From: Erodium maritimum
Taxonomy: Eukaryota > Streptophyta > Magnoliopsida > Geraniales > Geraniaceae
NCBI GenBank assembly: GCA_963921825.1
Contig: OY997592.1
Coordinates: 18,789,432 to 18,853,431 of the forward strand
Direction: 5' to 3'
Length of the DNA stretch: 64,000 bases
Part shown: positions 7,048-56,046 of the stretch, one piece after another
How the letters are laid out: each line of letters opens with the position of its first letter
Position numbering within the stretch: the first letter of the stretch is position 1
Translations under genes and position numbers: made by a program
The notes under the pieces: generated by a model
What the model was told of the DNA's origin: nothing
The model's input: the letters and a program-made list of their open reading frames with translations, nothing else
Databases searched by the model: none

Positions 7048-8850
7048 TTTTTTTTTTATCCACGAAAAAGACGATTTCATATCAACCCAAGACTAAAGTC
7101 TCAAAAGAGACAATGCAAGAGGAAAGAGGAGAAAGAACTAAAAGAAAAAACAAGAACGATAATAATAAGGGCAAACATCTATAAAAGCCAAGGGGAACTC
7201 TGAAAGATCTTACAGACATCGGCATCACAAGCAGAAGTTGTGAATCCCAAAGATTTACAGAGAGACCAAGCTCGCTTAGCTTCCGTATTTTTGCCCAATG
7301 AGCGAGAAGGGCTAGAATCCTCTGGCATAGAAACCGGAGGCGGTTTGGAGACCTTGCGACAACCAAGTTTTTTTGCGTTTCTTTTTCCTGATAAAGCCGA
7401 AAAGAGGGGGGAATAATCATTCTCCAAAGAAGAATTGATATCCACAATGAAATACGGGAAAGAATCCGGACGAGAAGTCGTTAGCAAAGGGATCTTCGGG
7501 GTCCTCGACGGGGGAAAAACTATTGCCTTGTCTAAAGCTTCCATATCAGCAGAAGAAATTAGGGAAGAGTCTGGGCTGAAAGGAATGGCCGGACAAGGCC
7601 CATCACTTGGAACTGGGCCGAGCGAAAGCCCAGTGAGGGCCCAGTCGTCTAGACCTCGGGGGCATGCGACCTTTCCACGCAAACCTCGGGAGCCAACAAC
7701 TGTAAAGGCACTTTGGGACTTGGCTTTTGGTTATTCGAGGAAGACGCTTTGAAAACTAAAGACCCACCATCGATCCTAACGTCGGGGGCCAGAACGGCGA
7801 GGGAAGCGGAGACAAAGGCAGGGGAAGGCGATCAGACGGAGATTCCTTCTTCGCCGGAGGAAGGAGGATGGAATTCCCCTTCTTCAAGATCCAACAAAGA
7901 ACACGAGGCAGAAGCAGAGGAAACTAAGATCTAGTCCAGGAAGTAGATACGGGCGAGAAAGGATTTCCCAAAGAGATGGAGCTTGACAAATTTGCTCACC
8001 GGCGACAAATCGAACGAAAAGATGAGGACGAAGGCATAATCGAGCCTTTCACGAGCAACAGAGAAGGGATGAACGAACAAGGGATTACCAGCGAGCGCAA
8101 CGATGTTGATAATCGAATCTTGAGTACAACTGGAAAGAGGAATACCGAAAATGGAAATCCACCGGAAGCAACTTACGTTAACAAAATCAGAGGTGTTGGT
8201 ACTAAAGAAGCAGAACCATGAGTGCAACCACGACCACCCAGAGCTAACAACAACACTATAGGCCTATGAATCTGAAAAGGAGATGAGAGAGCAACGATTG
8301 CCCAAATCAGCGAAGTGAGCGAAGAGCTTTTGAGTTGGAGATAATTCCGACCAGATTGCAATAATATTTTGGCAAGAGGTTTCCACTCCAACTATGTTGA
8401 GATTCAAAGCAATGGTCCAACTCGCATTTGAGGAACCCGAGCAAGAGAGAACCTGAAGTGGAGCAGTAGAAGAGGGAAAAACACTCGGACGGAAGTGGAT
8501 TTGAGAGCGATAAAGCCTAAAGAGTAGGCTAGAGAGAAGTTGACGATGAGGGAATCTGAACCCAACTTAGAGCGATGCAAGGATGAGATAGCCAAAGCGG
8601 CTTCATCAACGTTGACGAAGTGAACGGATCCGAACCTCTTCTTCGACCTACTGAGTTTTACCGATAGAAAGCGCGATAGATCGATCTAAACGAAGAGAAA
8701 AGATCGAGAAGCTTCTCTTGGGTGAAAGCAAAGGGAAGGTTACAAATGAACAACTTAGGGCAAGGAGGGCCAGAGGGATGAGAGTATGACGGGGGAAAAG
8801 GGGGCAACAACGGGTTAGGAGGTTTACTCATTTTTTGGTTGACCGAACTA
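7048..8850 (-). mobile_element. ORF1-only L1-type LINE derivative B (minus strand)
   Basis: The minus-strand element ends in a run of ten A (complement of 7048-7057) after a GATAAAAA-like tail motif. Its body carries only LINE ORF1 sequence: an RRM, then a DUF4283-like segment, then the conserved ORF1 C-terminal motif. The poly(A) follows directly, with no trace of endonuclease or reverse transcriptase. The left (3') end is sharp. The right (5') end is approximate and seems to abut a copia LTR relic. No target-site duplication was identified. Compare the element at 23946-25893, which has the same ORF1-only plan and clean boundaries. Confidence 0.6.
7180..8765 (-). pseudogene. Degenerate LINE ORF1 with RRM and DUF4283-like segment
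   Basis: Read from about 8765 leftward, the frame gives an RRM whose RNP2 motif is LFICNLPF (about 8734-8757). After a stop it resumes with the RNP1-like FGSVHFVNVDEAA (about 8600). Further on, WISIFGIPLSSCTQDSI and a following RERLDYAFVL segment (about 8000-8170) resemble the DUF4283 domain of plant LINE ORF1 proteins. The end, near 7180-7270, has the W..C..LGF...ADV pattern usual at ORF1 C-termini. ORF1 proteins of this type bind RNA and form the LINE ribonucleoprotein. Several frame changes and stops show that it is no longer functional. Confidence 0.6.
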
Positions 8851-9420
8851 TGTGTAAGAAGTGTTGAGTGTTGTTACATGGAGATGATACATCTATTGTC
8901 ACGCCCCAATTTCAGTAAACCGAACTAGGGACGCGAACATTTAAAATAATAAAACCGTTTGAAACCTGTTTTGAATAAACACTTTAAAAACCTCCATTTA
9001 GTTAATCAAATAATATTTACAACTTAAAATACGTCCCAACACGTGGACAAAAGTACAAGGTATCCGTCACTAGACTCAAAAGACAAAAACCCGGACTCCG
9101 CTCCTAGCTCCACAAGCTTCGAGAGCTCACCTAGTCCGTCCTGTGATCAGTACCTGTAGGAAAAGCAGCTAGGGGTGAGCGTTCGCTCACCACCACAGAT
9201 AACAGACTGACTACGACATAATTAGCAGACAATGCCGGTAACACCCACAACAAACTCAACTCCGGGGATCACTGTCCCCAACTCAAGTACTCCGACTGAC
9301 AGACACCCACGGTGACCTTCCTCGAACGACTCAACACTCAGACACGTAAGTAGGCCCGACACAACGATTGACAACCACTTCCCAAGACTCAAAAGACCAC
9401 CACACAACACCCAAGATCAC

Positions 9421-22933: not shown

Positions 22934-23130
22934 TTGGATGAATTGTACTCCTGCCCTCTAAAAGTGAGAGTGTTCCACATTAAGAGGAGTAGGTATGGGG
23001 ATCATGCTCCTCTTGAAGTGCTGGCTGAATAATAAATTATGTTTTTGTTGAATTTGTTAAATTCATATTTAATTAACAAAATACTAAATAATTTTTTTAA
23101 AAATATAAAATTAATTAATACATAATTAAA
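22934..23130. mobile_element. Harbinger-family remnant (left part; continues at 26403)
   Basis: The sequence around GAGTGTTCCACATTAAG...CTGGCTGAATAATAAATTATG...TTGTTAAATTCATATTTAATTAAC matches the non-coding end of the Harbinger element at 49870-49966 plus 54941-55020, with many differences. A Mutator-like element interrupts it at 23131, and the remnant resumes at 26403. No complete TIR pair was found, so only the relationship is claimed. Confidence 0.55.
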
Positions 23131-24117
23131 GAGGTGAAATCGGCTACAAACCACTCTTAACCTAAAAACTAGAGAACCAATCCTATCCACACACACCTAA
23201 GATCCAACATTCACCATGATGCCACATCATCACCCCAATTTCATCCAAATTCACGCCACTTTCATCCTTTCTCACACAAGCAAGGGCATAATTGTAAAAG
23301 CCATCAATTCACTAATTTAATATTTCCCGATTCGTTTGAACTCCGATTAGCTTCAAACTTGCGCCAATATTTTTATTTTTTTAAGGGCTTTAAATCAAGA
23401 TCAATCATGAATATATTTTGAAGCACGAAAATAAAAAGGTATATCGGGGTGATAAAAATAATGTTGAGTGTTGATAAATCTTTACCAATAAATGTTTTAT
23501 ATCGGAGGTATCAAACTAGTGCTAAATGTTGATAAAAACATGTACTGAGGTGATAAAAACCATGTTCAATTTTGATAATAAGTGTGATAAAGTAGAGTTT
23601 AGCGTTGATATAAAAAACATGTGATGGGGTGATAAAAACATATGTAATTTAATGGTAAACATAGTGTTTAGTGTTGATAAAACTAGTGCTCATAAAAACA
23701 CGTGATGAGGTGATAAAAATCATGTTCGGTTTTGGAAAATGAGGTGATAAAACTAGTGTCCAGTGTTGATAAAACCAGTGTAAAATGTTGATAAAACCAA
23801 TGTAAAGTGTTGATAAAAATTACGCAGATATAAGTTTTTTTAAATCAGCCCCGAAATAATTCTTTTTTTCGTGCTTCAAAAAAAAAACATGTGATGGGGG
23901 TGATAAAACACACGCAATTTAATGATAAACCTAGTGTTTGGTGTTTTTTTTGATAAGCGAAGAGATTTTATTAGGCAAACGTTCTACAAGAAAGTAAAAC
24001 GATGCGAGAAAAACGATCCTGAAAAGGACCTTTTCCCCAAACCGAAACAAGCATACGCAAAAATAAAAAATAAAAATAGAACAAGAAGCAAACTAAACAG
24101 AACACCGCCCTCCTTGC

Positions 24118-25877
24118 CTACTTCCTATCCGGATTCAAGCAAAGAAATCGGTTAGAGACCGAAACAGGAGTTAATTTTCCTGGAGTCACTTCCAGAATAC
24201 TCTCAATCTCGCTTTCCTCGTAGTCCTCCTCAACCTCAACCTGCCGTGGGAATTTACTTGGAGAGTTGTCAACATTCTTTTTCACATATCGCTTGCTAAA
24301 GCTCCACGAACCTTCGTTGTTTTGTTTAGCAATGTCAATAATGATACCTCCCACAGGACCCCCTTTATCAGCTGATGTTTTGGCTCTTGTCTGATAATAA
24401 ACAGTTGGAGGGACTGTCTTTTTTGGCTGCCCTTTTTTTGGACGACCACGTTTCCTTGGAACCTCCACAGGATTGATTTCTTTACGCAAAAGAATATCTT
24501 TCCACGGACTATCTTGAGGACCAAATTCTATTGAATCTCCATCCTGAGGCTGACAAACTTGCGTGTCTGAAACCGAACACACATCAACTGCTTGACCCAA
24601 ATCAGTATCAACGCGTTTAAAAACGTCAAACAAGCTCGGATCACTGGCCGGCGTAGATGGATCCTTACTGGCTAGAAAGGCCTGAACCCGTCCACCTTCA
24701 TGGGCCATAAGAACTGGTCCACTAGTAGCCAAAGTAGCTCCACTAACCAGGCCCGAAGCTGCTGGACCTGACTCACTCACCTTCCACTTTGGCCCATGCT
24801 CAAGCCCAAAACGCGACAGCCCACACACCTCACCACGCGTTTCAGAGACTCGCGTCTCCTCCAAATCTCGCTTCTCCTCCAAATCACGCGTCTCCTCCAA
24901 ATCAGGAACGCGATTCGCGCCAGCTGAAATCACGGGGGCAGGGATTGCCGGTACTTGAAGATCGGGCGAAGAAGCAGGGAAATTCAAATTTCCGAGAAAA
25001 CAGACGATACTGAATTGATTCCCACAGCGATTTCCGGGGGATTCAGTAATCCCTGCGTCGACATTGAAGGAGAAACGCCCACGAACTCAGCATCGCCACC
25101 AACGCCGTCCGGCGGAACTCGCCGGAGAAGGTCCGTCTCCCTCGAACCAGAAATTCCGCCAATTGTGATGCTCTGTTTCGAAAGTGACGGAACAGAGGCG
25201 CCAGGGACAATTTGACGTCCATTCTGTTCTGATACCGGACGAGCGATTGTGACCAAGAGCTGATAACCGTTCAGCTTGAAGCCGTTAAGCACTTCTATAG
25301 CCCGGAAAGCCGACTCCTTGTGTTTGAATTCCACGAATCCAACATAGCGACCTTTCCGGTTTGGTTTTCTCAGAACCTCGACAGACAGAATAACCCCGAA
25401 CACTCCCAGTGAGTTCCGCACAAATTCCGGTGAGGTTTCATAAGGGAGGTTATAAATAAAAACCTTGCAACCTTTGTCTTCTTCCACCACTGGCAACACA
25501 GATCGATCCGAATCAAGTATAAGACCAGCTCCCTGTTTTGACCCAGCAGAAACGTCCTCCATAGATGCGGCTTGAACTTCAACCGGAATCGTCTTGGTTC
25601 GAGCTTTTTTGGCCGAAACCTTCTTGGCCGGAACGTCCTCCATAGGTGCGGCCTGAACTTCATCCGGAATCGTCTTGGTACGAACTTTTTTGGCCGGAAC
25701 CTCCTTGGCCGGAAACTCCTTGGCCGGAAACGGCTTGGCCTTCCTCTTTGCACCGTCACGAACCTTCGTCTTTGTGGCCGGAACAATTGCTTCTCCATAC
25801 CTTAGATCTGCAACAACTTTGCAGTACTCTCCGTATAGAGAAACAAGGGTGGAGCCAAACTCAGAAAAAGAGAGCAT
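24118..25877 (-). pseudogene. LINE ORF1 protein with RRM and AT-hook, one frame change
   Basis: The first frame starts at the ATG 25877-25875, only 16 bases inside the element, and runs 297 codons to a TGA at 24986-24984. A second frame, open across that point, continues for about 289 codons to 24118. The first part has lysine-rich PAKKVRTKT repeats, then an RRM (RNP2 KVFIYNLPY, RNP1 KGRYVGFVEF; residues about 150-225). The second part has repeated DLEETR units, an AT-hook (RKRGRPKKG) and an acidic end. By family knowledge ORF1 binds the LINE RNA; the AT-hook suggests DNA contact, which is inference. A single indel near 25000 would explain the two frames; programmed frameshifting cannot be excluded. 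Confidence 0.72.
25554..25715 (-). repeat. Two 81-bp repeats in the LINE ORF1
   Basis: Two tandem 81-bp copies begin GTCCTCCATAG on the plus strand (25554 and 25635). On the minus strand each encodes a 27-residue basic unit containing ARTKTIP/VRTKTIP and EVQAA.MED. They lie just N-terminal to the RRM. Confidence 0.85.
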
Positions 25878-26412
25878 TTTTTATTCTGAAGTTGTGTTTG
25901 GTGTTGATAAAACTAGTGTGCATAAAAAGCACGTGATGATGTGATAAAATTATGACCAGTTTTGGAAATGAGGTGATAAACCCAGTGCAAAGTGTTGATA
26001 AAACCAGTGTAACAGTGTTGATAAAAGCAGAGCAAATTGTTGATAAAAATTACCCATGTATAATTTTTTTTAAAATCAGCCCCGAAATAATTTTTTTTTC
26101 GTGCTTCGAAATATATCCATGAGTGATCATGATAGAAAGCCCTTGAAAAAACAAAACTAATGGCGCAAGTTTGAAGTCAATCGGAATTCAAACGAAGTGA
26201 GAAAAATTAAATTAGTGAATTGGTAAAAAAATAATATGATAGTTTTACTAAAAAGCCCTTCCCACTTACAAAAAAATGCTGTTTTTTGCAGTCAACAAGT
26301 CAACAACTCAATTATATCTCATCCCACCATTTTTAAAATAAATGGCTTAGATTGGTGTTCTAGTTTTTAGGTTAAGACATGATTTGTATTTGATTTCTCC
26401 TCCATAATTAAA

Positions 26413-31743: not shown

Positions 31744-31873
31744 AAAGAGTTGGTATGAATCGTAATTCTCATTCTCATCATGTCCTAATATATACAAGTG
31801 ATATATCCTGATTCAAATACAAAATCTAAGGATAATGATCTATTTAAATATTACATTTGAATATATACAATAT

Positions 31874-33122
31874 GTGGAGAAATCAAATATAAACCACGTC
31901 TTAACCTAAAAACTAGAGAACCAATCTAAGTCATCCATTTTAAGAATGGATGGATGAGATGCAATTGAGTAGTTGACTTGTTGACTGCAAAAAAAAACAG
32001 CACTTTTTAATAAGTGGTAAGGGCTTTTTAGTAAAACTATCTTGTTATTTTTTTTAATCAATTCACTAATTTAATTTTCCCCGCTTCGTTTGAACTCCGA
32101 TTGGCTTCAAACTTGCGCCATTAGTTTTGTTTTTTTAAGGGCTTTAAATCAAGATCAGTCATGAATATATTTTGAAGCACGCAAAAAAAATTATTTCGGT
32201 GTTGATTTTTTTTATAAAAAAAATCTGTGTAATTTTTATCGACACTTTGCTCTGGATTTATCAACACTTTTACACTGGTTTTATCAACACTTTACACTGG
32301 TTTTATCATCTCATTTTCCAAAACTGATCATGTTTTTATCACCTCATCGCGTGCTTTTTATGAACACTAGTTTTATCAACACTAAACACTAGGTTTATCA
32401 TTCAATTACATGTGTTTTATCATCCCCATCACATGGTTTTTTTGAAGCACGAAATTGTTTTTATTTCGGGGCTGGTTTTTAAAGAAATTATATCTGGGTA
32501 ATTTTTATCAACACTTTGCTCTGGTTTTATCAACACTTTGCTCTGGTTTTATCAACACTTTACACTGGTTTTATCAACACTCTACACTGGTTTTATCACC
32601 TCATTCTCCAAAACTGATCATGATTAGTTTATCACACTTATTATCAAAATTGAACATGGTTTTTATCACCTCATTACATGTTTTTATCAACATATAGCAC
32701 TAGTTTGATACATCCGATATAAAACATTTATTAGTGAAGATTTATCAACACTCAACATTTTTTTATCACTCCGATATACCTTTTTATTTTCGTGCTTCAA
32801 AATATATTCATGATTGATCTTGATTTAAAGCCATTGAAAAAATAAAAATATTGGCGCAAGTTTGAAGCTAATCGGAGTTCAAACGAATCGGGAAATATTA
32901 AATTAGTGAATTCGTGAAGAAAAAAATGGACACTTGTCCACATGGCACCATGCTTTTACAATTATGCCATTGCTTGTGTGAGAAAGGATGAAAGTGGCGT
33001 GAGTTTGGGTGAAATTGGGGTGATGATGTGGCATCATGAGGAACGTTGGATGTTAGGTGTGTGTGGCTAGGATTGGTTCTCTAGTTTTTAGGTTAAGAGT
33101 AGTTTGTAGCCGATTTCACCTC
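31874..33122. mobile_element. Mutator-like foldback element, copy B (inverted relative to copy A)
   Basis: This is a 1,249-bp element with left end GTGGAGAAATCAAATAT and inverted right end GAGGTGAAATCGGCTAC. It is flanked by a 10-bp duplication with one mismatch, TATACAATAT (31864-31873) and TATACAGTAT (33123-33132). Its inner arms (about 32060-32180 and 32790-32910) are inverted repeats, and its middle (32215-32780) is an array of TTTTATCAACACT-like units. It matches copy A end to end in the opposite direction. No open frame of note, so non-autonomous. Confidence 0.85.
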
Positions 33123-33132
33123 TATACAGTAT

Positions 33133-35091
33133 AACTAACATATATGCTAGATATGCTAACAAGCTGACGCCCTGAGAATTAACTCACAAAAAGGACTCGG
33201 CAACCGCACCGGTCGTCAAGTAGTATTTCGATTCAAGTCCGGTTATCGTAGCCAAGAGAGCAATAAAACAGTCACTCGATTTAAAATCTGTTAGTTAATC
33301 TGTTTCTTGAAAAGATTTGATTTTGGTTTCGAAAATGTAAATAACAAGTTGAAATTTAAGGTAAAAGAAATTGAAATCAAGTACGAGGAAAAAATAGCAG
33401 ATGTTGTGAAATTAAGAAGAAAAGGTGATCTAGGACTTTAATGGGGTTATAATATGATTAATAATTCACAGACATTCCTGTTTACATGTGCAGACAAGGT
33501 TTGTTTAAATGCAACGGAAACTCTCTCGACTAGTCCTAAACAGCTCAAGATCGAATTAGGACCCTATTATAATCTAACCGCCTAGTTATCTCTAATCTAG
33601 GTGTAGAGAGACATAAATCATTAAGATTCGTGAATTCCTCTAACTTTCGGGTTGTAATCCTATAGTTGTTGAACTCGTGTTAACCTAATTTATTAGAGAC
33701 TAGATTTAAACCCGAGTTGCATAATCCGTAGTCCTTTTAGCTATTCCCATCTCTCTGTTGTTGAATCCTAAAACCTAAACATCTATCAATTGATCAATTT
33801 GACAATTCATTAAGTGTAAATCATGCAAACACTCACCTAAACACAAATTGCACTTAGTTAATACGAAAGCTTTAAATTATGTCATCATATTGTTTCCCCT
33901 AGCCCTAGATCAATGGAAATTTAACTCATGAAGATAAAGGAAGAACACAAAGAAGGAGATGGACAAGAGAAAAACATATTTGAAAGGTAAAGTTGATACA
34001 AAATATCAATTCAATGATGGAACCTCAATGGTTTTGCTTCAATCCTTGTTCCTAAGCACTTCTCTCTCACAAAACCGAAGCCCTAACTCTCAATCCCTAT
34101 GAAATTATGCCCAATAGAAGTTCTCCCTCTCCAAATTCGTTCTCCTCTATTTATAGTAGTTTAGGTGGTCCTTTTCTCCTAAAACTCGGATTTAGGAAGA
34201 GGAAATTTGGCCATTTTACTATTAATAATCGAATATGGAAATCTGACTTTGCGCGCCGCCCTGAACGAGATATGAGGCTGGCTGGAAAACGGTCCGTTTG
34301 GCTGCCCTAGGCGGGCAGCATAACAGCCCGTTTCGGAGCCCGTTCCGAGAATCCAAACGGGAACGGACATAAATTAATCCTTAACAAAAGTTGTAGATCT
34401 TTGAATTCTCTTCGATTTGATATAAAATATGAGGCAATCGGATTACTTATGAAGAAGTTATGCCCTTCTCAAGATCAGCCATCCTCCAAAACTCAAACCG
34501 TTTTTTCTCTCAATTTTAGCCCTTTTTTCAATCAAAGCACTACAAAAAAAATGAGCGACAAAGTACGAGTAACGAGAGAAAAGTGTACCAAATTATACAA
34601 CCCGGGACAGAAAAGGTCAATAATGTGGGATAAAACATCCAAAACCGATGCATTTTATGTCCACATCAACACCCCACACTTGAACTTTTCTCAGCCAGAG
34701 AAAACTAACCTAAGAAAACAATTAAAGATATATTCCAGTTAAACCTCGAGGTTCAACTTAGGAGGAGTCCGGGCCTCCTTTATTCAAAACAATAAAAAGT
34801 AAAGATGCATGTGCAATGCATGAACCTAAATCTAATGCATTCCTAAGACATACTATATAATGCATGCAAAAAGGCACACAAATAGGTGATAGTCGAATAC
34901 TTGTGCATAGAGGATCAAAAAGGATTTTCTCAAAGTTTATACATGCCATAAACCCTTACACACATCAAACAATCATATAGACTAATGAATACAACCAAAC
35001 ACGATGCTACTTACAATAAAGAATGCTTATGCGTAACTACTCATTTTTTTTAAAGTGACCATAAGTCACATGTTCTTGTGCACGCCAAACA
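33133..35091. other. AT-rich region, possible gypsy relic, no gene
   Basis: No open frame with a recognisable product. The CTCGGCAACCGCACCGG motif at 33199 and the CACCCCACACTTGAACTTTTC motif at about 34670 resemble non-coding parts of Athila/Tat-like Ty3/gypsy elements as I remember them. No LTR pair was found. Treat the relic idea as weak. Confidence 0.3.
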
Positions 35092-35106: not shown

Positions 35107-38100
35107 TTTTTTGAGCGAAAGTTGCAACTTTATTATAGATCAGAATTAAAGATACATTAGAGTGCATCAGACATAGGGTCTGACCACTGAAGAACAGGCA
35201 TATAATAAACTTCTCTGGCTAGCCAGTGGGAAGCTCTGTTTGCAATTCTTTTTAAAAATTGAAGGGTCGTCTCTTGTTGAGAAAGAAGCTCACGAATATC
35301 CTTAATTAGCGTACCTATGGGCGAGACCCGAGAATCACCACGAGAGATTAGGTTGAGGAGGACCTGAGCATCAAAGCGAATGATAACATTAGGTCTAAAA
35401 CTCGGTACATTCTTCAATGCCATCGCCATCGCGCAAGCTTCAACCATGATCGGGGACCATACTCCTGGTAGTATACTATTTGCGATTAGACGAATCGACC
35501 CCTGTGTGTCTCGGGCAATGATGCCCCATGCAAACTGCTGCGTATCCTGGAAGACAGCCCCATCCACATTAATGACGATGGTACTTGGGGGTGGGCGAGT
35601 CCACTTAGCCGGACAGACAATCGATGCTCTTCTGGGCTTCGGGGAAGCAGCTTTCGTCTCCTACCAGGCCGACAGATGGGCTGTCACCAATGGGATTACC
35701 CGTAATGCCGCCGGGGGTGTACCCCTCCATTTGAGCTCATTCCTGGCCTTCCATATTTCCCATAGAATGGAGAGAACCGCTACTAGCTTATCCCGAGGCC
35801 TCCCCGCCACTAGCCCCTCCCACCATTGCACAAAAGTCCCTCCTATCCCCTAGGGAATAAGGTCCCCAGCCTGAGCCTAACAAGTCTTTGCGAAACCACA
35901 TTCGAGGAACAAGTGGTCAACTGTCTCATGTGCTCGCCCACAAAAATCACAGGTATCAAGAATGGGGACAAACGTACGATTGAAATTGGTAGCCATTTGT
36001 ATAGTGTCAGTTAGACCTCGCCACAAGAAAACTAGGAGACGTGGGAGAGCGAGAATCGACCACAGGACAGACCATGTAACTAGCACCTTATGTTGCCTCG
36101 CTGTGGCTAGTATCGAATAGCCTGTTGTTGTAGTATAATACCACTTGTCCTTAGTCTTGAGTGGTGAAAGAGGAACCTAAATTATATTATCTCGTTCTTT
36201 GTCATAGAACACCCGACCCATCCGGGTGGCATCCCAGCACAACCTTCTTGGCACCATGAGCCCCGACACTCAAGCCCCAACCAAGGCCTGATTAGATGAC
36301 GTGATCTCCGGGTTAGGCCCCAAGAGCCATGGGGTACCCTTGATGAAGGTATCTCATCCATCCCCTATCGCGATCCGAAGGCCACCCCACAGTATTTCCT
36401 GAGTGGTCAAAATACTGGCCCATGTAAAGCTCTGGTTGGGCACAACCCCAGCCTCGAGAAAGTTGACCTTTGGGAAATACCGTGCCTTAAGCACCCATCC
36501 ATCAAGGACTGGGGACGATGGACCAGACTCCATGCTTGCTTTCCCAAGAGAGCCTTGTTGACATCACTCAGATGGCGAAACGCCATACCTCCAGCTTCCT
36601 TCGACATACATAGCTTGTCCCAATCCTACCAGATAATTGGTCGACCCGATTTTCCCCCTCACCAGAAATGGGCGAGGGCCACATGTATCCGATATATGAT
36701 CTTAGTAGGTATCGTAAAGACTGATATAACATAAACAAGAAGCGAGGTAATCACTGACCGGATCATCCCTTCCTTTCCTGTTGGGGAGAGGAGTTTTCCA
36801 TCCCAAGATCTAATACGCTTAATGATCCGGTCACCTAGGTATGCCATCGTCGCATACATATTCCGCCCGATCATATTCGGGACCCCGAGGTACATAGACC
36901 CCACCGAGGTCTCTTTAATATTCAATATCTGACAACATTGTTGTTTCATGAGCGCAGGTGTATTCGTGTTGAATAGAACTGAAGACTTATCCAGGTTAAG
37001 AACCTGGCCTGATAGGGTGCCAAATAGGGGTCTGCGCATCTTTAGGCGTGGCCCGGCAGAAGATATAACAATCATCCACGAAGAACATATGAGATATTTG
37101 CAGGGCCCTCCTTGCGACACAGATTCCCCTCAGACGCCCCTCACTCTGGGCTTGACGCAGTAGGAAAGATAAACCCTCCATACAGAGAAAGAAAAGATAC
37201 GGAGACAGTGGGTCACCCTGACGTAACCCCCGAGTCGGCGTAAGCTGTGACATCTTTCGACCCCTATACGAAATCATATAGTGAACGGATTTTATACAAC
37301 AGGCCACCAATTCAATCCAGTCCGCCGAGAATCCCAATCGACCCATAATCCGAATGAGGTAGTCCCATTCCACCCGATTATAAGCCTTACTCATATCAAG
37401 TTTAAGTGCCATAAATCCTACCGACCATTGTAGATTCTTTTAAAGGAAATAGATGACTTCAAAAGCGATAAGGATATTATCCTGAATACACCTGCTCGGT
37501 ATAAAAGACCTCTGGGTATCCGAGACAATAGTATGAAAAAGAGGCCGCAAACGATTGCGAGAACCTTAGATAGGATCCTGAAGATGACGTTACATAGAGA
37601 AATTGGGCGAAGGTTTGTTACTCTGTCTGAATTAGGACAATGGAGGTGTCGTTCAGCGTGTGATCAAAAGTATGAGAAGTCAACATTTCCCCTATGAGGT
37701 GCACCACCTCGTCCGCCACTATCGGCTAATAGTGTTGATAGAACCGAGGATTCAGGCCGTTTGGTCCAGGTGACTTGTCCGGCCCCATCTGAAACACTGC
37801 CATCTTGACCTCTGATACCGAGCATGGAGATAGCAAGGACTGGTTTTGTACTGGAGTAATACAACGAGAGAGAGCAATGGGAAATTCCTGCATATCAGGC
37901 ATACTTGAAGTATACAACGTGGTGAAGTACTTCACAATTAAGTGCCACATCCCTGTGTTCCATCTAACCAAGTCCCCAACGTCGTTTTTGAGATACATGA
38001 CCGCATTGACTCGACGCTGGTACGAACAAGCCGCCTGAAAGAATTTCGTGTTGCGGTCACCCTCATCCAGTCAGTGTTGCTTCGCGCGCTGACATCAAAA

Positions 38101-49650: not shown

Positions 49651-50352
49651 TTTTTTACCAGAGAGAATTTTGGGCCATTTCTCATAAAAGAAGGGACGAG
49701 TTAGTGATAATTGCATAGGATTATTAAGATATGTATTTATTTAGGTAATTCGGATAGACTAATTAGCATTAGAGGATCCAGTTATATGTGGTCTTGACTC
49801 AGGGTCTATTAGAGCATGTACATCGAAGGGGCTTGAGGCTTGAGGCTCAAGCCCCTTTGAAATTAAGAGTGTTCCACATCAAGGGGGCATAAGAGGGGCT
49901 CATGCCCCTCTGAAATGTTGACTGGATAATTAATCATAGTTTTGCTGAATTTATTAAATGCATATTTTTCTTTGATAAGCTCGAAATTTTATTAATAATA
50001 AAACCAATTCTAAAATGGAAAAGGCCAATGAGAACAATGATAACAAAGGAACTCAAAAGTGAGCTAGGGGTCCAAGACCTGAAAAACTGATCACCAGCAA
50101 ACAGGAGATACAACAAAGAGCAATACCAAACTGGTGTCTCACCGAGACCAACGAACAATACCTCAGGGTGAACAGGTGGATCCTCTGGTCTCAGAGAGAC
50201 TAAGTAATACGTGCCCCTCCACTCCTAGAGTAGATCGGCCCTTAGCGTTCCCCCGGATGAGCACTCGCTGGACCTCAGTGAGAAACAGACGAATCCTGAA
50301 AGATATAAACTCTCCGCAGACCCTGTCAAAACAAAACAAAACTATAATAAAA

Positions 50353-53300
50353 TCAAGTCCGACCCTGCCTCCGACGCGGCCGGATGCACAAGCTGGGTCT
50401 CCTGCACCAATCCTCATAAGAAAAGCCGACTCTCAAGGCCTGAGACTGCCACAAGATAACAAAGGAATGGTTCCTAATCTTCCCAAATAGAGTATCACCG
50501 GAGTTCATCACCTGATTAAACACCACTCCATTCTTGAATAACCACAAATGCCAAACAGTAATATAACAGACACGGACCCAAACCTTCCACATATGATGCG
50601 AGCCCACACCTCTCCACATCAAGATCAAATCTCCTACAGTCCTTGGCATGACCCACATCAGTCCCCACCACTCAAAAACCTTCCCCCAAATCCACCAGGA
50701 TAAATAACAATGCAGGAAAATATGATCTGTAGTTTCCATGAAAGACTTACACATAGGGCAAAACATCTGATTAATCGTTACAAACATACCCCTTGCCTCC
50801 AAGAAAATAGCAGTAGGTAAAGCGTTATGTGCAGCTAACCAAACCAACACATTGTGCTTGCGTGGTATATCGGCCACCCACAAAACAGAATCCCACGACT
50901 CGACCTCCATCAGCATAGAATAAGCAGCAGAAACTGTAAAACCAAAAGAGGATTTCGTCCAAAGGAGAGTATCATCCAAATCGGGGGCCAAAACACAATC
51001 TTCTAAATAGGTATAAAGAGCACTCACCTCTTCTCTTTCTTTATTGCCACGATTGTTCCTGAAAGAAACCAACCACCCTTGCTCGTTCCAAAAATCAGCC
51101 ACAACCCCTTCCTTGTTAACTGCTCTAGAAAAAGCCAACGGGAACCGAGATCTCAAGGGTGCCTCGCCGATCCAAACATCATCCCAAAAGGAAATGGAGT
51201 TTCCACGCTCCAAATTCCACGAGAGTCCCTGATTACCAAACATACTGCAAAATAGGGGATCACTAGCAAGTTCCAAAATATGATTCAAAAGATAACAAAT
51301 ACCATTATTATCTAAACGCGATAGATCCCAATCATCAACCGACCACCCCATCCTCAAGCAAATAAGCCCTTCCATAAAGATCGCTTAGTAGTGGAGAACG
51401 CAACCACCATTTAGCTAACAACGCTACATTCATCACTCCCAATCTACGGAGGCCGAGACCCCCCAAATGCTTCGGCCTACAAACTTTTCTCCATTTAACC
51501 TTATTTAGAACCCGTCCATCTCCCCCATTCCGCCATAGAAAACGCCTTTGAGTAGCCTCAAGATTTTTAATGATTCATTTTGGTGCCTTACATAACGACA
51601 TGAAAAATAGAGGCAAACAAGATAAAGTGGACTGAATCAAAGTAATTCTACCAGCAACAGATAGATACTTAGCCCGCCACAACTCCAGGGCTGAACGATA
51701 TTTACTTAACACCGGCTCCCATGTAGCCAATCTCTAAGGGGAAGCCCCTAAAGGAAACCCCAAATAATTCATAGGTAACGAGCCAGACTCACACCCCAAC
51801 ACCTCACTTACTTCCTCAGCTGAAAGAGAATTAGCATTAAGAACAATGGCCTTTGACTTAGAAAAGTTAACCTTTAGCCCAAAGACTAACTGAAAACCTT
51901 CCAGATCAAACTTCAGCATAATCAAATCATCCAAAGAACCACGAACAAACAGAATAGTATCATCGGCGAACTGTAAATGCGAAATGGAAAATCCGGAATT
52001 TCCAACACAAACGCCTCTCAGATACCCGACCTCCTTTCCCAACTCCAAATACTGGAGTAAGCCTTCTACTGCAATTAAGAATAAGAATGGAGACATAGGG
52101 CATCCTTGACGAAGTCCATTCACCATCTCGAAATCTCGAGAAGGAACTGCATTAACCAAAACAGAGAGATGAGCCCTTAAGCAAGAGGCAAACCATCTCC
52201 TCCACCTTCCCCCAAAATTCATCTGAATAAAAACTTCCTCCAAATACCCCCATTGCACCAGATCATATGCTTTCTCAAAATCAAGTTTCAAAATCACAGT
52301 CTCCAATCTCGACTTCTTCACAAACTGGATGACCTCTGAAGCAATCAGAACCCCATCTACCAATTGACGGCCAGCCACAAAGCCACTCTGGTTGTCACTG
52401 ATCAAATCACCAATAACTCTCTTTAACCTGTTGGCTAAGACCTTGGCAAGAATCTTATAGGTACTCGATATTAGACTTATAGGCCGATAATCACTGAATA
52501 TCTCAGCTTGGGAATGTTTAGGAATCAAAGTAAAAAAAGTGGAGTTCAAGCCTTTTCCCAACAAACCTGTAGAATAAAATTCCTCAAAAAATCTCAGCAC
52601 ATCTCCCTTAAGTATGTCCCAAGCAACCTTAAAAAAATTTAAGGTAAAACCATCCGGCCCAGGTGCTTTCTCGCTCCCACAAGCATCAACATCACTCTCA
52701 ATATCAGCACAAGAAAAAGGCCGCTCCATATCCACCCTCTGATCATAAGATAATAACTGAAAGGGAAAGGATGGTAGAGTCCCACGGTCAGGCAACGGGT
52801 TACAAAACTGCTGTTCAAAATACGAAGCTGCACCTTCCAAGATTTCAGACGGAACCGAAGTAAAACTTGTCCCAATCCGGATCTTTGATAACCGGTTCCT
52901 CTGAGCTCTAAAGTTTGCAATCTTATGGAAAAAATGGGTACACCTATCACCACAACGAAACCATGCCATTCTAGACTTTTGTCTCCAAATCTTATCCAGA
53001 ATCTTCTACTCAAGGATCATAATAGCCCGAAGCCAGGACCGATGGCTCACTTCGGAACCAGGCAGAGGTCTCTCGTCCTGAATTCTATCTAAAGCATCGA
53101 TTTCAGCCACTAGGTTCTTCACCCTCTCCTCAGAATTTCCAAACACTTCCTTGTTCCAAGATTGCAGATCCAAACGAAGTGACCTCAACTTGAAAAATAA
53201 ACTGTAGCTGGCTGAAACATGATCATAATAAAAAGACCAAAAAGAACGAACAACAAATACAAATTCAGGATGATCTACCCAAGCATTAAAGAACTTTATC

Positions 53301-54012
53301 GGGCGGGCTCCCCACACAACTTCATCTACCTTCAAAAGCAACAGTCTATGACCTGACAAAGATCTAGGTAAAGCAACCTGAGACAGTGGCCTGAAAAGAG
53401 ACATAAAATCTGCAGATACAAGAAATATGTCAATACGAGATAATTTATCTGCAGAATGGTACAAAGTAAATTGAGACCCATATAAAGGTAGATCAATGAG
53501 GTCCATTCTGGACACAAAATCCTGAAAAACCCGAATATCAGCTTGTAAGGAAGCATAATTACGATGCTCATCCGCCAAAAGCACATAGTTAAAATCTCCT
53601 GCATAAATAAAAATATCAGCCAACAAGCCCCTTTTCGATCTCAACTCATCCCACAAAGATTTCCTATCCCGAGCATTATTCGGAGCATAAACATTAATGA
53701 ACGAAACTCTCACATCAACAAATACACAGAATCCAGTCCAAATGGAGGCATTTCGAACCGGTACAACCGATTCCATCCGGAAGCTGGAATCCTGCCAAAG
53801 ACTGAGTACACAACCAGCAGAACCAATAGGTGGTATATAACTAAAACTCCAACTACCGTGTAAACCCAAACTTCGAATAAAAGCATAATCCACTGTATGA
53901 ACCTTTACTTCTTGTAACATAATAAACAACGGTCGATAAATACCAAATCTCTCAGACAACGTCTCTTCTGAGAGGAATTAAGTCCTCTCACATTCCATGA
54001 GAGGACCCTCAT
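50353..54012 (-). pseudogene. LINE C ORF2 (endonuclease-reverse transcriptase), few lesions
   Basis: It starts MRVLSWNVRGLN at 54012. A frame change near 53950 leads to the endonuclease (53959-53009: IMLQEVK, GDFNYVL, SRIDIFLVS). The last endonuclease motif reads LSGHRLL where LSDH is expected, so a catalytic aspartate is replaced by glycine. A TAG at 53008-53006 separates it from the RT, which is in the same frame (52969-51734: APGPDGF, LDFEKAYDLVQW, GLRQGCPMSPFLF, catalytic QFADDTILF). Another stop and frame change lead to the zf-RVT part (51375-50353: CPMCKSFMETTDHIFLHC). The enzyme would nick target DNA and copy the LINE RNA. It is inactive as it stands but the least decayed LINE here. 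Confidence 0.9.
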
Positions 54013-54867
54013 ATATGAGATAGAGCTTAAAACACCCTCCGAAGGATTAGAGGGTTCAATCAGTAAATTTGTAACAGGAACAACAAGATCTCCAGAACCA
54101 GATAATAAAGTATGTTTATCACAAAAATACGGCAACCCATCCACTACAAGCCAATTCCAATATTCACCAAGTAGAGCTAAGGAGCCATCCAAGCTCAGAA
54201 CGTTAAACCACGTCAGAAACCAACGCCATTCCGTCTCACGTAACATGGAAGCGAAAAGGACATCCGAATAGAGCAAAATGAAGAAATTTCCACAAATTCT
54301 CCTCATCTCCATTCCTTTAGCTCCACAACTCTCCATTTCTTCACGAACTTGCTCCAAAACCAGACCGGTCCGGAGAGAAACAATTGCTCCTTTGGATATA
54401 CGTTCCACTTCCTCTCGCCGGACCAAATTACCCTGAGAATTGGTTGCGACCGGTTCCGGTAACTTAGGCCTCCACACTGGACGGCGTCTCACACTTTGCC
54501 TACCCCCTGCTTCCATCCAGTCCAATGCCACAAACAAGAGAAAGCCTTTGATCTTTTTTCCATTTTGACTGTCAATTAACTTTGTAGCATCTGCCCTTGA
54601 ACGTACATATGCAAAACCAAACACCTTCCCAGTGAGGTTTGGCTGAGCCACCATAGTGGCTTTGACAATCAGAAAAACACTACCAAAATACGATTCAAAC
54701 CACTCATGCGTAGTGCCAAAAGGGAGGTTACAAATGAAAACCTTGACGAGTTTACTTGGATTCGCCACATCGACTGCATGTGCTCCTCCTCCATGGATAA
54801 ACGAGGTCGCCGGAACAGTACACGGAGCCACCGGAGCAGCCGCAAACGAAGAACTTTCTCCCCTCAT
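54013..54867 (-). pseudogene. LINE C ORF1 with RRM
   Basis: From the first ATG in frame (54867-54865), 285 codons lead into ORF2 without a stop, so ORF1 and the first ORF2 codons form one frame. The RRM has RNP2 KVFICNLPF and RNP1-like GKVFGFAYVRS (residues about 42-115). A tryptophan-rich C-terminal part follows (about residues 190-250). The RRM resembles those of the ORF1-only elements at 7180-8765 and 24118-25877. By family knowledge it binds LINE RNA. The fusion to ORF2 could reflect loss of the ORF1 stop. The frame is open upstream of this ATG. Confidence 0.75.
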
Positions 54868-56046
54868 GAGCTCTAACAAAAACAAACCCTGGTCAACTTT
54901 GGTTGGTATGCGTGATCGTTTGCATTGTTAAATGCATATTAAATTAACCAAATATTAAATAAAATTAATAAAATAAATTAATAAATACATAGATTTAAAA
55001 AAATACAAAACTAATTAATAAACTTGAAATTTCATTAATAATCAAACATTAAAATGGTTTCTAGTACATCAAATTTATTACAAGAATAATCTCAATCGTC
55101 CGAATCCGTGTCGTTGTCTGAGTCACGGTAATTCGCTCCAAACCGAGTCCATATGTGCTCCATAAGGTCATGCTGGAGTTGTCGATGAGTCTCATCATTG
55201 AGGACGCTGACTCGAGCACGCAACTCATCTCGTTGTGGCAAGGGCCCTCCTTGATGGCATCGTTGAGGTGGTGCCCAATCTGGTATGTCTGGCGGGGGCT
55301 CGAAATACAATTCGCCATCCCCGGCTTCGTAGCGGTCGCGTTCATCCTCCACAATCATATTGTGTAGAATGATACAAGCATGCATCATGTTAGCCAAGGT
55401 CGACTTCTTCCAGATACAAGCCAGCCGTGAGATTATGTGCCACCGTGCTTGGAGGACTCCAAAAGCCCGTTCAATATCTATCCGAGCTCCTTCTTGACAT
55501 TTGACAAACAACTTCTGTTTGCGAGTATGAGGATGGCGAATCGTCTTCACGAACCGACTCCATGTGGGGTAAATGCTGTCAACTAAATAATACGGACGGT
55601 TGTAGCGAAGCCCGTTGAGCTCGTAATGCACGGACAAGTCACAACCATGGAAAGCGTCCTTGAATAAGTGACCGGCGTGGAGGACATTAATGTCGTTGTT
55701 CAAGCCAGCCATCCCGAAATACGCATGCCAAATCCACGTATCACGGGAAGCAACCGCTTCAAGCATAATGGTTGGATTCCCGTGATCTCCACGTTCGTGT
55801 TCTCCTTGCGATGCGATCGGACAATTCTTCCACTCCCAATGCATGCAGTCAAGACTGTCAATCATACCGAGGAACCCTCGGTTGTGGCCCGGCTCGAGTA
55901 ATCGCTGCATGTCCGCCTCATTCGGCTTCCGCAGGTATTCCTACATGAAAACCTCAATAATGGCTATACAGAAACGTCTAACACATTTAAGTATAGTACT
56001 TACCCCCATAATTAGTGTGTCGTCCAATCAATCGGCGGAGCACCCG

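Follow-up and report, generated by a model that had tools for sequence, protein, structure and literature searches.

The window, a 64,000-nt stretch of the Erodium maritimum genome, contains an element, here called the window copy, at 23946-25893 on the minus strand, which is a retroposed insertion between two 12-nt target duplications (Table 1). The duplicated word, GTGTTTGGTGTT, occurs in the window only at 23934 and 25894. The poly(A) of the window copy is short, with 6 A plus 2 that are common to the duplication, and 166 nt separate it from the ORF stop. The copy was inserted in a repeat copy at about 23123-26400. This host repeat has long inverted arms (23305-23436, for example, is 86% complementary to 26091-26222) and many GTGTTGATAAAA-type direct repeats, and two copies of it are found in the window, at about 23123-26400 and 31846-33147. 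Because the flanks of the window copy are repetitive, a chance origin of the 12-nt repeats had to be excluded, and the site was therefore compared with the other host-repeat copy in the window. When joined, the flanks aligned across the junction with 32635-32131 (minus strand) at 82% over 515 columns. This empty-site paralogue rules out chance, an objection that the initial annotation had raised against itself; the coordinates, minus orientation, poly(A) and 12-nt repeat are as that annotation had claimed.

Table 1. Features of the window copy, its insertion site and the full-length L1 of the window.
Feature	Position	Strand	Basis or remark
ORF1-only LINE-derived element (window copy)	23946..25893	-	12-nt duplication; at least 52 related matches in the source genome, itself included
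Target-site duplication, element 3' end side	23934..23945	.	GTGTTTGGTGTT, two occurrences in the window
Target-site duplication, element 5' end side	25894..25905	.	GTGTTTGGTGTT
16-nt leader, from duplication to ATG	25878..25893	-	resembles other copies only in the A-run beside the ATG
ORF1 5' part, 297 aa	24984..25877	-	open frame; holds RRM_1
In-frame basic repeats, PAKK/PAKE type	25548..25736	-	visible in translation
RRM, aa 139-207	25257..25463	-	PF00076, E 4.5e-14; dN/dS 0.21 across 18 loci
ORF1 3' part, -1 frame, 289 aa	24118..24987	-	open frame; related tail in the L093/L096 L1
AT-hook motif KRGRPKKG	24431..24453	-	by eye; within the stretch aligned to the L1 ORF1 tail
3' UTR	23952..24117	-	at least 41 source-genome matches; 18-copy alignment
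3' UTR hairpin 1	24006..24038	-	predicted fold
3' UTR hairpin 2	23975..24005	-	predicted fold
Poly(A), 6 nt plus 2 shared with the duplication	23946..23951	-	read from the sequence
Empty-site paralogue, second host-repeat copy	32131..32635	-	alignment through the junction
Full-length L1 (RRM ORF1, endonuclease, RT, zf-RVT)	49967..54927	-	13-nt duplication; Pfam

Other LINE-related elements lie in the same window. In the full-length L1 at 49967-54927 (minus strand), the RRM-containing ORF1 and the start of ORF2 lie in a single continuous open frame. At 35115-38070 (minus strand) there is another LINE, whose 3' end is different and which has an RNase H-like domain (PF13456). Element F, at 7050-8870 (minus strand), is a decayed LINE-like element that has an RRM-type ORF1 with a middle domain, a 3' UTR and poly(A). 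No ORF2 was seen in element F, and by eye it has no clear target duplication; it could be an L1 that was polyadenylated prematurely, or an ORF1-only element of a second kind.

The ORF1 of the window copy consists, in order, of a basic N-terminal region, an RRM recognized by the Pfam profile RRM_1 and an AT-hook tail. It is spread over two overlapping open frames of 297 and 289 aa, the second in the -1 frame, and owing to this frameshift the window copy is not intact. The full ORF1 with basic repeats, RRM and AT-hook described initially is thus borne out as to its length and its three parts, and its intactness has to be given up. Taken together, the two ORF1 frames exceed chance: the longest frame was as long as 298 aa in one of 1000 dinucleotide shuffles, and no shuffle contained two such frames. 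Between the 81-bp internal duplicates in ORF1, 8 codons differ and 6 of these differences change the amino acid; the duplicates therefore give no signal of selection. The endonuclease, RT and zf-RVT of the window L1 had no match inside the window copy, in agreement with the absence of ORF2 noted earlier.

The source genome (Erodium maritimum, 763 Mb in 40 contigs) was searched with several parts of the element. At least 52 matches were obtained with the whole element (40 of 2027 candidates scored), at least 41 with the 3' UTR alone (40 of 1136 scored), and at least 132, with identities down to 35%, with the N-terminal half of ORF1 (132 of 9812 scored); the first-look candidate numbers, including the 17162 of the L1 search described below, are not copy numbers. 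Among the 132 scored ORF1 matches, 82 are stop-free, and 26 of those also lie within an open frame of at least 500 aa. The window copy and 57 further fetched copies, 58 distinct copies in all, were examined as stretches, 21 of them over only the 3' part of about 1.5 kb and 8 over 1.1 kb around the end of ORF1. An ORF2, looked for with the endonuclease, RT and zf-RVT of the window L1, was found inside the element in none of the 58 copies. In the part-fetched copies, the end of ORF1, the 3' UTR and the poly(A) follow one another directly, or a short 3' piece is present; six of them (L048, L049, L054, L055, L058, and L061) match the window copy over its last 207-343 nt only. The sole overlap among the copies is at L023, which is nested inside an L1, where the RT match overruns the start of the element slightly as a gapped alignment run-over. 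The RT frame at L023 continues beyond the element with repeated residues NS(L/V)YKI, which look like an imperfect target duplication.

These results show that the window copy belongs to a large, old family and isn't the product of a single deletion event, which is ruled out by the searches with the whole element, the 3' UTR and the N-terminal half of ORF1. The initial annotation had named two outcomes to look for, many copies lacking ORF2 with their own duplications or a lone deletion among relatives that carry ORF2. The former was found: there are many copies without ORF2, several of them full length with their own target duplications, and the latter is at odds with 0 of 58 copies. No relatives of the window copy were detected in a scan of viral collections, and a scan of further genome contigs returned one bacterial RRM only, judged to be a general RRM match.

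Target duplications were searched for at the expected distance in 26 of 28 loci, with swapped 3' flanks as controls (L015 and L016, which have another 3' end, were dropped; L012 is without a 3' end). Exact duplications of at least 9 nt were present in 12 of the 26 copies against 30 of 650 controls, those of at least 10 nt in 8 (the window copy included) against 8 of 650, and those of at least 12 nt in 4 against none of 650. The other 14 copies have no exact duplication of at least 9 nt at the expected distance, and some of the shorter duplications are runs of few bases (L024, L034). A 13-nt duplication flanks the 5'-truncated copy L021, and at L016 there is a 14-nt duplication with repeats 1937 nt apart. 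Duplications of varying length together with poly(A) are what LINE-type retroposition by target-primed reverse transcription (TPRT) leaves behind, and the insertions of the family are independent.

The 5' ends of the copies differ from one another. Similarity between copies begins at the ATG, and there is no common 5' UTR. Each of L011, L013, L014, L016, L022, L025, L026, L031, L034, and the window copy has its own unrelated leader before the ATG. The leaders of nine copies that have a duplication, which in two of them is just 9 nt, are 10-25 nt long; positions -4 to -1 are mostly A (7-8 of the 9 copies), and positions -10 to -5 agree at 0.24, as random sequence does. L026 and L029 are 95.5% identical yet wholly different upstream of the ATG, the duplication of L029 not being found. 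A scan of their own loci for a local source of at least 9 nt for the nine leaders, a weak scan that stopped at the first length with more than one match, returned only the leader itself and sub-words in the lengths printed. The unrelated leaders of about 6-21 nt before a mostly conserved AAAATG might mean that the 5' end is supplied anew over rounds. Candidate sources are transcription that begins in DNA beside the element, template jumps, and the addition of a leader to the RNA.

Selection on ORF1 was assessed from Nei-Gojobori counts on in-frame pieces from 18-20 loci, the pairs being not independent of one another. The median dN/dS of the RRM is 0.21, and all 143 usable pairs of 153 are below 1. 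Elsewhere in ORF1 the medians are 0.66 at the N-terminus (below 1 in 88 of 99 usable pairs), 0.77 in the segment that follows the RRM (84 of 105), 0.70 in the segment behind it (176 of 190), and 0.55 in the final 135 codons (186 of 190), where close pairs often have a dN/dS near or above 1, as expected after insertion. Our results indicate that the RRM of the family evolves under purifying selection. In most pairs with the window copy, the last 135 codons show a synonymous divergence several times below that seen in the RRM; RNA constraint and recombination could both produce such a low divergence.

The relation of this ORF1 to L1 ORF1 proteins was examined with several of its parts. The RRM of the window copy matches the RRM in ORF1 of the window L1 with 39.1 bits. 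It also matches the single-RRM PDB entry 2dgv_A with 38.5 bits, and proteins with several RRMs score more; hence the RRM alone cannot set the window copy apart from host RRMs. In the reverse query, the window L1 RRM scored 39.3 bits against the window copy and at most 22.5 against single-RRM PDB entries, and its 50.5 bits against Pab1 are summed over four RRMs. A search of the source genome for L1 RT, in which 99 of 17162 candidates were scored and which gives a lower bound, included an ORF2-bearing L1 on contig C6, seen at loci L093 and L096. Its RT shares 57% identity with the window L1 RT, the match being free of stops within an open frame of 1240 aa, and the element has an 11-nt duplication. 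Two parts of the ORF1 of the L093/L096 L1 resemble the ORF1 of the window copy, namely the RRM (40.5% over 74 aa) and the AT-hook tail (44% over 59 aa); in the L096 copy this ORF1 is itself split across two frames. The AT-hook tail peptide of this L1 matches 45 of the 60 entries searched, the window copy included. Matches to the middle ORF1 domain of this L1 are confined to the window L1, element F, and two places outside family copies (L019, beyond the element, and L064, on the other strand), and the domain was found in no family copy among the 60 entries, several of which are a 3' part only. The family has probably lost ORF2 and the middle ORF1 domain, rather than the L1s having gained them. 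Because the RRM is weak evidence when taken alone, the case for L1 descent is carried by the 3' tail, the AT-hook tail, and the ORF1 architecture. Judged from its sequence, the family is derived from plant L1s, both ends of ORF1 and the 3' tail being L1-like.

In an alignment of 18 family 3' UTRs, two adjacent hairpins are predicted (-20.4 versus -7.3, sd 2.7; 0 of 200 column shuffles). The initial annotation had recommended comparing this 3' end with those of full L1s, and the comparison brought out one ORF2-bearing L1, L093, that shares a tail of about 100 nt. Twenty L1s were fetched and the ends of 17 were located (all but L077, L080, and L084), two of them with less than 60 nt of upstream sequence (L092, L095). 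The L093 tail aligns with the window copy over about 100 nt, including both hairpins, and scores 59, where 5000 shuffles gave at most 41. For the last 60 nt, L093 scores 48 and the other 16 L1 ends 14-24; the long match is thus found in 1 of 17 located ends, and the other 16 match about 20 nt or none. The hairpins are predicted at the same places in the L093 L1 and in most family tails despite changed stems. Single-sequence folds without both hairpins exist (e.g., L068 and L071), and the joint fold of a mixed set of 13 L1 and family tails retained hairpin 1 only. Single-sequence folding also covered the tails of the window L1, element F, the RNase H LINE, and a plus-strand L1. Compared with the window L1 by itself, the window copy has only a 22-nt end match in common, the shuffle counts out of 5000 being 8 for the last 40 nt, 38 for 60 nt, and 2222 for 150 nt, and the 3' end of the RNase H LINE has no match to the end of the window copy.

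Cross-comparison of 9 L1 tails with 8 family tails separated two classes. L093 is the best fit for the tails of L068-L073 and for that of the window copy (38-73, with 0 of 300 shuffles in each case); a few weaker matches to window-type tails also occur, such as that of the window copy to L086 (32, 0 of 300). The tail of the divergent member L075 fits window-type L1 tails (44-58, and 35 for L089; all 0 of 300). The window L1 itself gives it a score of 39 over the final 48 columns (0 of 1000), and it does not fit L093 (23, 31 of 300). L015 and L016 end in an L093-type tail (113 of 121 and 113 of 120 identical, 93-94%) that is joined onto the family's own 3' UTR; they may go back to one common event of tail acquisition. 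The simplest reading of these tails is that an L1 reverse transcriptase would start on family tails and could switch templates, so that the parasite could acquire the tail of a helper.

Taken together, the copies very probably represent a non-autonomous, L1-derived family that has no ORF2, carries a shortened ORF1 and an L1-type 3' UTR, and would be copied in trans. The L093/L096-type L1 is the candidate helper, by virtue of the similarities described above. In the proposed mechanism, the family RNA would be transcribed by Pol II and translated to its own ORF1 protein, which would coat the RNA that encodes it. The two-hairpin tail and the poly(A) would then be taken by the ORF2p of an L1 acting in trans, leading to target-primed reverse transcription. 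Only ORF1 has been kept under selection, which implies that the family's own ORF1 protein acts on its own RNA. The non-autonomous LINE proposed in the initial annotation finds support in a family without ORF2 and in a tail shared with an L1, and its movement would be in trans.

A bolder reading, to which we give somewhat less than even odds, is a single-origin old clade in which ORF1 was kept under selection, the 3' tails were swapped between L1 helper families by template switching, and the 5' end of the RNA or cDNA would be supplied anew by a source outside the element. The two tail classes, which match two L1 families, could also reflect recurrent independent deletions from several autonomous L1s instead of one lineage. 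We consider this unlikely, as no family copy among the 60 entries searched showed the middle ORF1 domain, and 26 ORF1-only rows stand apart from the 3 L1 ORF1 rows in a midpoint-rooted RRM tree. The support of 93/97 for this split is moderate and below the tool's own mark, with only 3 L1 RRMs included. Rows shorter than 65 aa (L014, L023) and L1 loci without an RRM match (L100, L101) were left out of the tree, and L097, from the element with the other tail class, groups among the ORF1-only rows.

Processed retrocopies of a host RRM/AT-hook gene family, with selection acting on the host gene, would account for the poly(A), the duplications, the absence of introns, and the purifying selection, and the canonical RRM resembles host RRMs too. 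Such an origin is nevertheless very unlikely: the 3' UTR is related to an L1 3' UTR including its two hairpins, the AT-hook tail and RRM match L1 ORF1, and similarity between the copies starts at the ATG and not in a common 5' UTR. We give still less credence to prematurely polyadenylated L1 RNAs, in which each copy would be an L1 transcript that ended after ORF1. Premature polyadenylation is suggested for human L1 in a passage of a previous report (PMC4859970), and it would yield a full 5' end, an ORF1, and poly(A) without ORF2. For the ORF1-only family, this explanation is contradicted by the sequence after ORF1, which is like an L1 3' UTR and not like an ORF1-ORF2 junction, by the absence of the middle ORF1 domain as well, and by the single 3' end common to 18 aligned copies. 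The non-autonomous L1-derived family copied in trans therefore remains the preferred explanation.

To our knowledge, ORF1-only LINEs with persisting coding function are known chiefly from mammals. The mammalian half-L1, HAL1, descends from a mammalian L1 with a coiled-coil ORF1. In passages that cite Bao and Jurka 2010, HAL1 is described as an ORF1-only, L1-derived element thought to be moved in trans by L1 (PMC4859970; PMC4161310). The Erodium family is similar in having ORF1 and lacking ORF2 (0 of 58 copies) and in a 3' end like that of its candidate helper L1. In contrast to HAL1, it lives in a plant, its ORF1 has an RRM and an AT-hook tail without the middle domain and is related to the L1s of the same genome, and it has a long hairpin tail common to a particular L1. 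The likeness to HAL1 drawn in the initial annotation thus applies to the mode of life, ORF1-only and L1-derived, and not to membership, since the ORF1 carries an RRM and an AT-hook and the relatives are plant L1s. The BNR-type plant L1 of Heitkam and Schmidt (2009) reportedly has an RRM in ORF1, as does the Erodium family (PF00076); BNR LINEs carry ORF2, whereas no ORF2 endonuclease or reverse transcriptase was found in the Erodium family.

HeT-A of Drosophila is a Gag-only non-LTR element without its own RT and is telomere-specific, of an animal, and of a different clade; the Erodium family likewise has no RT of its own, and differs in its plant host and its clade. The Sadhu retroposons of Arabidopsis are described as non-autonomous, non-coding elements of about 900 bp with poly(A) and 7-16 bp duplications, consistent with LINE mobilisation (PMC2848041). 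The Erodium family is also a non-autonomous plant element with poly(A) and target duplications; however, it is protein-coding, with an RRM dN/dS of 0.21 and at least 26 stop-free matches in frames of at least 500 aa. For flowering plants, another report names three tail-sharing pairs of a SINE and a LINE; in one of them TS is paired with an RTE-clade LINE, and in maize a SINE and an L1 have in common a 3' tail with a hairpin (PMC3747384). Here, too, the parasite and an L1 share a hairpin-bearing 3' tail, but the parasite is a 1.9-kb coding element and not a SINE.

No ORF1-only LINE family was found in the open-licence literature on plants. What appears to be new is a coding, ORF1-only LINE family in a plant, together with a candidate helper L1 and indications that tails were exchanged, as read from the sequences compared here. 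It would allow a direct test of the role of ORF1 apart from ORF2, and of cis preference. With two tail classes and two L1 families, it would also be a further case beside the few tail-sharing pairs of parasite and LINE in flowering plants. Annotation pipelines may list such ORFs as genes for RNA-binding proteins.

L1 pieces adjoin several family copies, upstream at L012, L019, L022, L024, and L028 and downstream at L025, and an L1 surrounds the nested copy L023. The L1 matches near family copies share one orientation, which is the same sense as the copy in the six loci that were sense-turned; L012 was read as fetched in this check, and the copy there is also forward. This common orientation may reflect insertion into A-rich strands. 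In the window itself, a Plant_tran transposase frame (PF04827, 8e-89) lies at 55092-55940 on the minus strand.
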